In this document: in pieces, positions 1-2,443 of the stretch
Numbering within the stretch: the first letter of the stretch is position 1
How the letters are laid out: each line of letters opens with the position of its first letter
Source: Romeriopsis navalis LEGE 11480
GTDB taxonomy: Bacteria > Cyanobacteriota > Cyanobacteriia > Leptolyngbyales > Leptolyngbyaceae
Assembly (NCBI RefSeq): GCF_015207035.1
Contig: NZ_JADEXQ010000006.1
Span: 1 to 64,000, forward strand
Length of the DNA stretch: 64,000 bases
Direction of reading: 5' to 3'
Made by a program: the position numbers and the translations under genes
Notes under the pieces: model-generated
What the model was told of the DNA's origin: nothing
The model's input: the letters and a program-made list of their open reading frames with translations, nothing else
Databases searched by the model: none

Positions 1-115
1 GGTGCAAGAATTTAGTCAAAAACTTTGAGTGGACCCTCGAACATGCCAGAGCCAAGCTCAATCTCTGTTTCATTCGCTTGATGCTCAAACGACTCGCTAA
101 CACATAGATCTCAAA
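1..115 (+). mobile_element. right end of an insertion sequence (partial)
   Basis: The first ~110 bases carry the 3' end of a transposase reading frame that stops at 105-107. An integrase gene on the opposite strand loses its homology to other integrases at about the same place. The simplest reading is an IS whose right end lies near 105-125 and whose body extends left of the window. The exact boundary, terminal inverted repeat and target duplication cannot be fixed without the other end. Confidence 0.5.
3..107 (+). CDS. IS transposase, C-terminal fragment (5' end outside window)
   Basis: Reading frame 3 is open from the window edge to a TAG at 105-107 and gives 34 residues. The tail contains NLVKNFEWTLEHARAKLN followed by LCFIRLMLKRLA. 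Tails of this kind (a basic 'NLVKNFE..' stretch followed by 'LCFIRLMLKRLA') are characteristic of DDE transposases of the IS4/IS5 superfamily common in cyanobacteria. The catalytic residues are not in the window, so the family is inferred from the tail only. The gene is partial because it begins before base 1. It runs towards, and probably into, the integrase remnant on the minus strand. Confidence 0.55.
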   Translation, partial: CKNLVKNFEWTLEHARAKLNLCFIRLMLKRLANT

Positions 116-411
116 TGGGTTCTATACTCGTAGAAGCGCTGGAATAGCATCACCGGGTCGATGGTTGTATTCCTTGAGGGTGATGCGCCACAGTACTTAG
201 CCAATGTGGGGTCGTAGTTCCCTGTAATCAGGTCAGCCTCGATTTGGTTGGCTTTGGCCTCAGCAACTTTACGCGCGAGCGCCGTGTCGTACATCTTCAA
301 GTAGAGGGTTTTCCGGTTCCCCGCATAGGACCAGCGCAACCGGAGATTACCCCGATCGTTTTCAACCTTGACTCGCTGTTTTGCCTGGCCCATGCTGTCT
401 ACCCATGTCAT
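97..411 (-). pseudogene. tyrosine-recombinase (integrase) N-terminal fragment, truncated by an IS
   Basis: The 104-residue product starts with MGQAKQRVKVEND (from the second Met at 393; the first Met is at 411) and continues with LRLRWSYAGNRKTLYL. This is the Arm-type DNA-binding N-terminus of cyanobacterial phage/island integrases. A normal enzyme is about 350-420 residues, with core-binding and catalytic domains carrying the R-H-R-Y residues. None of these are present. The reading frame dies at 97-99 inside the IS tail, so the gene was probably interrupted by the insertion. It lies about 150 bp beyond the 3' end of tRNA-Val, the usual attachment target of such integrases. I infer a decayed integrative element extending left of the window. 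Confidence 0.7.
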
Positions 412-564: not shown

Positions 565-636
<72 letters not shown>

Positions 637-843: not shown

Positions 844-873
844 TTGACAAGATCTGTCCCCACTTGCTAACGT
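844..873 (+). promoter_or_regulatory. candidate promoter / palindromic region upstream of the ParM-like gene
   Basis: TTGACA at 844-849 is followed, after 18 bases, by TAACGT at 868-873, a weak -10 match. The same stretch holds an inverted pair CTAACGT (867-873) / ACGTTAG (912-918) around GTACTTATGTAC (872-883). In parMRC-type loci the partner protein binds repeats upstream of parM, so this is the natural place for such a site. No clean iterated repeat is visible. Confidence 0.3.
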
Positions 874-1001
874 ACTTATGTACTAATGGGTCGAAATGAA
901 TGCAAGCGGGGACGTTAGTTGACTATCTGGTGTTTCAGCTGAAGCGGCTATTTGCTCCCCATCACTGGCGACTTGCCAATCACCATAGGAGAGAAATTCC
1001 C

Positions 1002-2048
1002 ATGACTGCGATGCAAACACGTCCGCAAGAACAAGCCAAGCCAAGTAAGAAAACATCGCTAATCGCTGAACCGGGTTTAATGCGAACGGTCGCCTTGGAC
1101 GCCGGTAATTATGATTTGAAGTATTGGGATGGCATCGGCAATCCGAGTGCAGTGCGATCGATGCGGTATCAGTTGCCCACGGGCCGTGATCCGGTCAAAT
1201 TCAATGATAGTTCGCCATTGGTCGAATTGGCTGATGGTACGCGGTACCACTTTGGTATGCAAGCCTATAAATATCGCCGTCAGCAACAAACGGTGGTCGA
1301 GAACAAAGTTGATTTGTCGAAGTTGCATCTTTACGCTTGCTTAGAGCCAGGGCCGCTAGAAGATGGTCTGTGTCGTTTATCGGTGAACCTCCACGTTTCC
1401 ACTCCCGAACCGGAACGACACCGCAAGCTGATTAAGGAGCAATTATTGGGATATCACGAATTTACCCGGAATGAAATTCCATTTGAAGTCACCGTCGAGC
1501 GGGTCGAAGTGGAGCGGGAGGGCCTGGGGGCCTATCGGACCGCACAACGGATGGGGCTGATTCCGGATACGGGCTACACGATCGTGATTGACCTCGGTGG
1601 TGGCACCTGGTTGAGTCGGTTGATTGATTCCGATGGGGAAGTGATTGATGAAAATGTGATGGATCGTGGTGGTTCCTATGATTTAGCCACCTCAATCAGC
1701 TTTGATAAGCGTTTAGCCAATGCCCTGGGGACAACCGCTGATCCGGGCATTATTATGGATGGATTTCGCAGTGGTCATGTCTACGCTGATACCGGGCATG
1801 GTTGGGAAGACTGGCTCGATGAGTATTTAGACTCTTGGTATAAGAATATCTTCCGCATGGTGAAGTCACAGTACACACCATTTATGCCGAGAGTGACGCG
1901 GTTTTTGGTGACGGGTGGGAGTTCCCATTTGATTGCCGATCGGTTTGCTGGGTTCCCATTGTTTGCGGTGATGCCGGACCCCCAGTTTGCCAATGTTCGT
2001 GGTCTTTATCCTGTGGAGGAACTACAGCTATGCATGACAACAAATTAA
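1002..2048 (+). CDS. ParM/StbA-like actin-family ATPase
   Basis: An actin-fold ATPase of 348 residues. Phosphate-1 motif VALDAGNYDLKYW lies near residues 29-41. Phosphate-2 motif IVIDLGGGTWLSRLID is near 195-210 and adenosine motif FLVTGGSSHLI near 305-315. This D-x-G-N-x-x-x-K signature is that of ParM/StbA filament-forming partition proteins rather than of MreB or Hsp70. The start is placed at ATG 1002 because AGGAGA lies at 987-992. The frame is open up to 900 but has no comparable ribosome site there. The gene overlaps the next one by 19 bases, as in two-gene partition operons. ParM proteins polymerise with ATP and push plasmids apart. A role on a chromosome beside an integrase remnant is unknown and may reflect an integrated plasmid or element. 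Confidence 0.8.
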   Translation: MTAMQTRPQEQAKPSKKTSLIAEPGLMRTVALDAGNYDLKYWDGIGNPSAVRSMRYQLPTGRDPVKFNDSSPLVELADGTRYHFGMQAYKYRRQQQTVVENKVDLSKLHLYACLEPGPLEDGLCRLSVNLHVSTPEPERHRKLIKEQLLGYHEFTRNEIPFEVTVERVEVEREGLGAYRTAQRMGLIPDTGYTIVIDLGGGTWLSRLIDSDGEVIDENVMDRGGSYDLATSISFDKRLANALGTTADPGIIMDGFRSGHVYADTGHGWEDWLDEYLDSWYKNIFRMVKSQYTPFMPRVTRFLVTGGSSHLIADRFAGFPLFAVMPDPQFANVRGLYPVEELQLCMTTN

Positions 2049-2356
2049 GACTCAGCCCGGATGTGATTAATAAAGCTGAGGAGATTGCGGAGACCTGGGG
2101 ACTGAAAAATGCGCGGGCGGCGATCGAAGCGGTATTTCGGAAATATGCCGATGATTATCAATATGGTCGGCAGCCAATGATGGCGATGTTTTCCGAGATG
2201 CAAATGCAAGCCATGTCCATGGGCGACGCGGCAACGATGATGCCCGCAACTGTGCCGGCTGTGCCGACCGCGCCCCCGGTGCGGGAACCGATTGCAGTGG
2301 CTGCACCAACAAGTTGTAAAGCCTTGAACGAGCTGGACGATCTGCTTGGTCTATAG
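2030..2356 (+). CDS. small ribbon-helix-helix-like partner of the ParM-like protein
   Basis: The product has 108 residues. Residues 5-42 (KLRLSPDV, then two helices ending AVFRKYADDY) have the strand-helix-helix spacing of a ribbon-helix-helix DNA-binding domain. A Met/Ala/Pro-rich linker follows, then a short acidic C-terminal helix (LNELDDLLGL). In ParR of R1-type plasmids the N-terminal RHH binds centromere repeats and a C-terminal helix contacts the ParM filament end, and this layout matches. The start ATG lies inside the 3' end of the ATPase gene, preceded by GGAGG around 2013. A strong terminator follows. The family name is inferred from position and architecture, not from recognised sequence identity. 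Confidence 0.6.
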   Translation: MHDNKLRLSPDVINKAEEIAETWGLKNARAAIEAVFRKYADDYQYGRQPMMAMFSEMQMQAMSMGDAATMMPATVPAVPTAPPVREPIAVAAPTSCKALNELDDLLGL

Positions 2357-2412
2357 TGTGTCCTGCCACATCAATTGTGTTTCCTGCAGAGAAAATTTGG
2401 TGTTAACATTTT

Positions 2413-2443
2413 GTCAGGCTAGTGTTTATTAGCCTGACTTTTT
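2413..2443 (+). terminator. intrinsic terminator of the parM-like operon
   Basis: A perfect 9-bp stem GTCAGGCTA/TAGCCTGAC with an 8-base loop is followed directly by TTTTT. It lies 57 bases after the small partner gene and just before the end of the convergent gene at 2458. Confidence 0.85.

Follow-up and report, generated by a model that had tools for sequence, protein, structure and literature searches.

Host actins derived from plasmids have already been described in heterocyst-forming cyanobacteria (FcmBC/CorMR), and some Firmicutes are known to carry chromosomal ParMs whose role is unknown. According to the sections of PMC12645912 drawn on here, FcmB, a chromosomal ParM-derived actin, and its ParR-like partner FcmC shape cells in Nostoc, and the nucleoid distribution of fcmBC mutants is without obvious change. 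Dh-cParM1 and Cb-cParM, from Desulfitobacterium and Clostridium, are chromosomal ParMs conserved together with a ParR within one lineage; the part of PMC12270681 used here gives their role as unknown and mentions no SOS box. In the Corynebacterium prophage CGP3 a chromosomal actin-like protein, AlpC, is paired with a DNA-binding adaptor, AlpA, and the portion of PMC4446434 used here reports early expression of the pair after mitomycin C induction, a proposed role in moving phage DNA and 24 alpS repeats in the promoter. Here we analysed an operon of the same general kind in the cyanobacterium Romeriopsis navalis LEGE 11480. It lies in the window, by which we mean the whole stretch analysed, the first 64,000 nucleotides of NZ_JADEXQ010000006.1 (the start of contig 6 in a genome of 6.47 Mb). 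The operon encodes a ParM/Alp-type actin-like ATPase followed by an overlapping, ParR-like gene, the layout of a type II partition operon that the initial annotation had recognised, and it has named relatives in Alkalinema, Leptolyngbya, Myxacorys, Oculatella and similar cyanobacteria. As a conserved pair on a chromosome it falls among the chromosomal ParM-ParR systems (cParMR), a known kind; what is possibly new is the lineage, the independence from FcmBC/CorMR and a possible control by the SOS response. We consider it reasonably probable that the pair is a domesticated host ParM-ParR filament system that arose independently of FcmBC/CorMR and has descended, for the most part vertically, within one order and a small number of families close to it.

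The ATPase gene (1002-2048, forward strand, 348 amino acids) begins at the ATG at 1002, behind the ribosome-binding site AGGAGAG (987-993, forward strand). Starts at 900 or 844 were disfavoured relative to this one, and 844-849 is a TTGACA box. The protein matched the Pfam family ALP_N (PF17989, E = 6.6e-8, above the cut-off) and PHROG 691, 'partition protein' (E = 1.3e-22). An AlphaFold2 (AF2) model made with 25 family members (mean predicted local distance difference test score, pLDDT, of 79, with low-confidence ends at residues 1-24 and 339-348) aligned best in the PDB with Ta0583 (Z = 25.7), Alp7A (23.6), CorM (23.0) and ParM of pSK41 (22.6), and at a lower level with Spiroplasma MreB3 (18.3), DnaK (18.0) and MamK (17.8). 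The cParM fold is likewise similar (8x1i, Z = 21.0) at 16% identity by structure alignment. Residues D33, G35 and N36, D197 and G199-T202, and G305 and G306, which from general knowledge of actins we take to form the nucleotide site, were invariant in 25 aligned rows. Judged from these matches, the ATPase is an actin-fold protein with intact nucleotide-site residues, and its earlier assignment to the ParM type is borne out. The ratio of nonsynonymous to synonymous substitution rates (dN/dS) was 0.014-0.061 in 10 pairs of ATPase genes, in three of which dS exceeded 1, and 0.012-0.193 in 9 pairs of partner genes; on these estimates the ATPase is under strong purifying selection. The ATPase had no match in the phage collection at E ≤ 1e-3. 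No match to StbA_N (PF06406) was found in the genome of R. navalis, and the control genomes were equally without one.

The partner gene (2030-2356, forward strand, 108 amino acids) is hardly recognised by sequence searches. It gave just two matches in Pfam, both below the cut-offs (E = 0.085 and 0.21), no match at E ≤ 1 in NCBIfam and PHROGs, and only weak matches with unrelated names among solved structures. In an alignment of 27 members the first ~47 and the last ~13 residues are well conserved, the middle is free in both sequence and length, and the acidic C-terminal helix, with a CEALDELDDLLGL-type motif, is near-invariant. The AF2 model placed helices at residues 10-23 and 28-45 (pLDDT 88-92 for the block of residues 11-40) and a weaker C-terminal helix, at lower confidence, at 97-106. 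A structural second look matched it to MazE (MazE-mt1), TacA, CopG, NikR and Arc at Z = 3.8-5.1, with a root-mean-square deviation of 1.7-1.8 over 42-44 residues for CopG; we take these five to be ribbon-helix-helix (RHH) proteins. Plant TCP-type factors scored about equally (Z = 4.8). Counting against an RHH fold, the AF2 model is of a monomer only, at a mean pLDDT of 67, and leaves the strand of the RHH unassigned. The assignment thus comes from the AF2 topology and the structural second look, and since Foldseek alone found nothing at E ≤ 0.001 we regard the fold as likely, not proven. The partner is accordingly described as a likely RHH domain (residues 1-47), a variable linker and a conserved C-terminal helix, much as first predicted for both the small overlapping gene and its acidic end.

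Pairing of the two genes was assessed at the loci retrieved at an identity above 60%, 64 in all and 51 of them distinct. Counted from the ATPase, the partner follows at 49 of the 51, among them a locus from a metagenome assembly (L002) in which the partner frame is interrupted; of the remaining two, L029 stops at a contig end and L032 is a broken copy. At 44 of the 51 loci the coding sequences overlap by exactly 19 nucleotides, as they do in the window, so that the overlap cannot be put down to chance. Across the gene order of these loci the ATPase-partner pairing is near-constant. On two of the points by which the initial annotation proposed to check itself, the fold of the small protein and its pairing with the ATPase, nothing was found to refute it. 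The broken copy (L032:576-1130, also G006:C56) was considered as an ATPase-partner fusion and rejected: it holds the first ~118 residues of the ATPase and then an unrelated frame with stops, and a weak remnant of the partner's end lies downstream.

The same arrangement of parts is found in ParMRC of plasmid R1, with an actin fold (Z = 19.9 to 4a61) and a downstream RHH-type partner with a C-terminal helix. The C-terminus of ParR binds ParM. Among plasmid records, the closest ATPase outside the family is the ParM of the 38 kb Allocoleopsis plasmid pMIC7113.05 (NC_019741.1), at 51%. It too has an overlapping partner gene with a similar C-terminus, NALDALLSA (by eye), whereas the partner itself and the promoter palindrome differ from those of the window; a different partner with a similar C-terminus is what would be expected of a protein that contacts the ATPase with its C-terminus and DNA with its N-terminus. 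Taken on these comparisons, the ATPase probably forms a filament to which the partner is tethered through its C-terminal helix.

Of 42 genomes of the order, 40 contain the ATPase, each with one match at E ≤ 1e-40; one of these is the broken copy (G006) and two are cut by contig ends (G036, G039). No match came from G008 or G029, whose completeness is 69% and 99%, respectively. The gene is chromosomal in three single-contig genomes (G012, G016, G025) and also in four others (G015, G017-G019), where it lies on contigs of 5.7-7.3 Mb. In a sample of the phylum it was present at ≥66% identity in 6 of 386 genomes, and two of the six, G052 and G254, belong to other families. Its tree was compared with that of RpoB for 38 genomes (a 597-residue part of RpoB): 18 of 35 splits were common to both, against at most 3 with shuffled labels (n = 200), path lengths were correlated at r = 0.85, against at most 0.28 in 999 permutations, and 15 of the 18 strongly supported splits of the ATPase tree were common to the RpoB tree. 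A tRNA-Val(CAC) gene, the head-to-head neighbour of the operon in the window (565-636, reverse strand), adjoins it by pattern at 16 of the 51 loci, in eight genus codes; ARAGORN confirmed the gene in the window and at each of the other 15 loci flagged; six unflagged loci tested with it had none. Among 20 stretches and the window, no protein-coding neighbour was common to most; one set of such neighbours is kept within one genus code, and neighbours differ between genera. Together, the distribution, the congruence with RpoB, the tRNA neighbour and the changing protein-coding neighbours indicate that the pair appears to be vertically inherited while the gene order around it decays. Being chromosomal and congruent with RpoB, the operon does not share the plasmid-borne character of ParMRC, and we hold with high confidence, from these comparisons of genes and trees, that it is a domesticated, vertically inherited host system. 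One option in the initial annotation, that of a filament system on the chromosome with a new role, is thus counted among its correct readings on the present comparisons.

Descent from the same domestication as FcmBC/CorMR can be set aside. FcmB was represented, in place of the N. punctiforme sequence, by the ALP_N protein present in all nine family-f7 genomes searched. One of these proxies (L113) matched 9rmi at E = 3.9e-224, so that FcmB and CorM are apparently a single family under two names; from its PDB title, we take 9rmi to be CorM, of the CorM/CorR pair, from Anabaena PCC 7120. By contrast, a profile of the window's ATPase family reached CorM at only E = 0.0091, and L113 is 21% identical to the window's ATPase over 221 residues. 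In a tree of 64 ATPases the window's family adjoins the Allocoleopsis plasmid gene (support 0.997 for the two together) and the FcmB/CorM ATPases form a separate branch of plasmid-type ParMs elsewhere. Forcing the two families together costs 59.9 log units (approximately unbiased (AU) test, p = 1.4e-5; a quick tree with long branches), and the ATPase was therefore rejected as an FcmB/CorM orthologue. FcmC-like proteins are also longer than the window's partner, ~139-179 amino acids where complete. From these trees and alignments we read the window's family and FcmBC/CorMR as two independent domestications.

The region upstream of the operon, in which the initial annotation had placed a centromere-like site (867-918), is a promoter. 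A -35 hexamer, TTGACA (844-849, forward strand), which stands in the same place in many loci by eye and was missed by a simple promoter scan, is followed by a -10 region, TAACGT (868-873, forward strand; TATAGT in most relatives), assigned by position and sequence only from 51 upstream regions lined up. At nearly all 51 loci this -10 region is overlapped by a 14-bp palindrome, CGTACTTATGTACT at 871-884 in the window. The pattern AGTACnnnnGTACT was matched at ≥9 of 10 positions in 46 of the 51 upstream regions (0.5% of shuffles and none of 49 downstream controls did so), and the column majority over the 51 loci is roughly TATAGTACNNNTGTACTA. This consensus is the same as that published for cyanobacterial LexA: in the part of PMC3091678 used here, RGTACNNNDGTWCB is given as the cyanobacterial LexA box (Mazon et al., as cited there), putative sites read AGTACWNWTGTACT, and the ssb site of Nostoc 7120 is one base off the window's palindrome. 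The LexA (SOS) box is matched exactly, on the reverse strand, at 871-884, the only exact match within the window (0.32 expected). It scored 11 of 11 at 37 of the 51 loci (0.29% of 2040 shuffles; 0 of 49 downstream controls) and ≥10 of 11 at 50 of the 51 (7.4% of shuffles; 3 of 49 downstream controls); scoring at each locus's best palindrome left the counts unchanged, and all 37 perfect boxes sit there. A second conserved element, TGGGGACA, was matched at 8 of 8 positions, on either strand and ≤300 nucleotides upstream, at 34 of the 51 loci against 0.9% of shuffles; by eye it adjoins the palindrome or, inverted, precedes the -35 box. As aligned sequence, the promoter of this operon is thus conserved, with a LexA-type palindrome over its -10 region and another conserved box; the operon is closed, as originally noted, by an intrinsic terminator of 11 pairs followed by TTTTT (2413-2438, forward strand). 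Among open-licence PMC papers, none was found that describes this ATPase family or reports a LexA box associated with a chromosomal parMR.

A regulator that could act on this box is available. LexA is encoded in all 30 genomes tested (29 above the cut-off; E = 8.1e-53 in the genome of R. navalis), and the lexA promoters score 10-11 of 11 in 29 of the 30, with no shuffle control. The recA promoter of R. navalis itself scores 10 of 11. The exact pattern TAGTACNNNNGTACTA had 60 forward matches in 41 genomes of the order, compared with 13 for the reversed control. By reading of the list, 15 of the 60 stand at the ParM-type operon, and of the 45 elsewhere 20 were fetched (L220-L239, exact TAGTACnnnnGTACTA), 19 of which are intergenic. 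G029, which has no operon, keeps two exact palindromes (L240, L241), one of them in a promoter-like setting, TATATAGTACAGTTGTACTAA. Such a distribution is more readily explained by a chromosomal regulator that has targets of its own than by a site specific to the operon, and we conclude, as far as motif matches can carry it, that the operon is on balance probably under LexA control. As a side observation, the L220-L239 sites (for example L223:1201 and L224:1203) are candidate targets of the same regulator. Pfam searches with five genes downstream of other palindromes, from the two commonest settings, gave three DUF2721 proteins (one below the cut-off); the other two start with MTEVKT, have hydrophobic C-terminal stretches and belong to no Pfam family.

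Several observations weigh against a vertically inherited, LexA-controlled host system. The recA promoters (L272-L301) score ≥10 of 11 in only 6 of 29 genomes, among them the window's genome and its near relatives G005, G007 and G010, and 11 of 11 in none, with shuffles at 8.1%. That recA promoters are mostly without a LexA box argues against a classical SOS network, and the SOS regulon of these genomes would, for that reason, be unusual. The lexA boxes are mostly like GGTACAnnTGTTCT and less symmetrical than the operon's palindrome; at three loci (L018, L027, L064) the best palindrome is weak or away from the -10 region; and one exact LexA-box match per 64 kb is unsurprising, with at least one in 27 of 100 shuffles. 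As to descent, 2 of the 18 strong splits of the ATPase tree conflict with a strong RpoB split, and the chromosomal clade is separated from the Allocoleopsis plasmid gene with moderate support (0.91; 94 in a second tree). G029, 99% complete, has neither an ATPase nor an FcmB match (E ≤ 1e-5), and so the ATPase-partner system is not strictly essential.

FcmBC suggests the alternative that survives best, namely that the pair is a functional stand-in for FcmBC/CorMR: an independently domesticated ParMR that shapes the cell, with its RHH partner recruited to the membrane. We regard this as possible, short of favouring it. Both systems of filamentous cyanobacteria have the same chromosomal layout, a ParM-derived actin gene and then a small ParR-like gene with an acidic C-terminus, and the cell-shaping role of FcmBC and the nucleoids of its mutants, as described above, would suit such a function. 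The two families also hardly overlap, with the window's type and the FcmB type in 40 and 2 of the 42 order genomes and in 6 and 61 (at E ≤ 1e-20) of the 386 phylum genomes, respectively, and both in none of the 386. This exclusivity is not shown, however, because about one genome with both would be expected by chance in the phylum sample and because G007 carries both types. The two order genomes with the FcmB type, at 59-65%, are G007 and G008, of one genus code, and 14 further order genomes match it at 22-28% identity; the genes lie at G007:C372:13174-14199 (L161) and G008:C139:570-1581 (L162), the latter with internal stops. Also against the stand-in, no LexA-type palindrome was found upstream of fcmB-like genes (best 8 of 10 in 27 distinct regions), and in the window's partner few parts are as well conserved as the RHH domain.

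Somewhat less likely, in our view, is that the palindrome is no LexA box but the operator or parC of the RHH partner, the operon being purely autoregulated like plasmid type II systems. Repressors of the RHH type frequently recognise palindromes in the promoter of their own gene, and here palindrome and RHH domain are conserved together; the scarcity of LexA boxes at recA points the same way, as does the Allocoleopsis plasmid relative, whose different partner goes with a different promoter palindrome, an inverted repeat with perfect 13-bp arms around a TTGACA box (L109:5864-5896). The plasmid locus is a natural test of operator-partner swapping. Pure autoregulation is harder to square with the independent publication of the consensus for LexA, with the excess of mostly intergenic palindromes elsewhere and with the two palindromes kept by G029. 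The second conserved box is, moreover, available for the RHH partner: the TGGGGACA boxes may be its binding site, judging by their conservation. The window's own copy is inexact; a TGGG ... GGGGAC pair of boxes, spaced by about two turns of the helix (887-913, forward strand), is a candidate RHH/ParR site there. A second, weaker palindrome, AGTACAAACGTATT, on the -35 side (832-845, 9 of 10) recurs in near relatives (L001, L002, L003, L004, L032, L034) at a spacing of 38-39 bp.

Active segregation of the chromosome, with the RHH protein bound to a chromosomal centromere, strikes us as improbable. A ParR-like RHH protein kept under selection at a chromosomal location would fit it, and in the part of PMC12270681 used here the authors raise this possibility for cParMs. 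Yet no array of palindromes was found: exact copies number 0-4 per genome, scattered and without clusters in the list, and the palindrome as a dispersed chromosomal centromere was accordingly left unsupported. At the locus itself, no direct repeats were found at 640-1010, and an iteron scan put the chromosomal loci level with shuffles, a weak test since the plasmid relatives were not picked out either. By this same weak test the operon differs from R1 ParMRC in having no centromere array found; it differs from AlpC-AlpA in that the scan gave no iterons and no prophage was seen to adjoin it, although no dedicated prophage search was made. Inverted repeats are indeed present at 867-918, as the initial annotation stated, and it is their role as a centromere that finds no support, the region overlapping the promoter, showing no iteron array by that weak test and carrying a conserved palindrome that fits a LexA box better than parC. 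The best-paired arms (856-867 and 902-913; 12 bp with one mismatch, by eye and absent from the automated repeat list) form a hairpin that, by eye, is absent in the nearest relatives.

That the operon is a remnant of an integrated plasmid or island, or an island's stabilising module, beside a tRNA by chance is very hard to maintain: an integrase piece and tRNA-Val lie nearby, the ATPase family is nested among plasmid-type ParMs and protein-coding neighbours differ between genera, but the same tRNA neighbour recurs in other genera, the ATPase occurs as one copy in nearly all genomes of the order (one of them broken) with a tree largely congruent with RpoB, the integrase piece is on the 3' side of the tRNA and the operon on the 5' side, the tRNA end is not repeated elsewhere in the window, and the GC contents of the two genes (0.504 and 0.538) are close to that of the window (0.506). 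The integrase piece, outside the operon, is the N-terminal part of a tyrosine integrase (Arm domain, PF12167, E = 1.7e-7; 97-411, reverse strand, 104 amino acids) and its terminal stop lies 97 bases from the start of the contig. Integrases enter at the 3' ends of tRNA genes. The 3' end of tRNA-Val is at 565, towards the integrase piece, and an integrative element may have used the tRNA on that side; the contig begins at base 1, so that the search for a second tRNA end could not reach further left. Of the integration scar proposed beside the operon, the integrase piece and the tRNA are therefore real, but the piece lies beyond the 3' side of the tRNA and not on the operon's side.

Returning to the domesticated host filament system, the following course of events may be proposed, tentatively. 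An actin taken from a plasmid would have been put under the host's SOS repressor, so that, while damage is being repaired, filaments induced by it tether or move copies of the chromosome, or else hold the cell or alter its shape. LexA on the palindrome would keep the operon low, and DNA damage would lift this repression. A dimer of the RHH domain would bind DNA, perhaps at the TGGGGACA boxes, and so contribute autoregulation, and the C-terminal helix of the partner would cap or nucleate ATPase filaments as ParR does for ParM. The filaments would thereby be anchored to DNA or to another cell structure, and the payload would be the host's own chromosome or envelope, with no plasmid involved. As to what is moved or held, DNA (the chromosome or nucleoid) comes closest to an even chance, a role in cell shape is slightly less likely, and a role other than these two is rather unlikely.

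A domestication separate from FcmBC/CorMR would demonstrate that plasmid machinery of one and the same kind has been recruited more than once, and under different control. The conserved LexA-type box offers a concrete and cheap test of the operon's purpose, namely DNA damage, and the open question of what chromosomal ParMs do would become directly testable in a transformable filamentous cyanobacterium. If the proposal is true, these cyanobacteria would possess a host actin cytoskeleton under SOS control.

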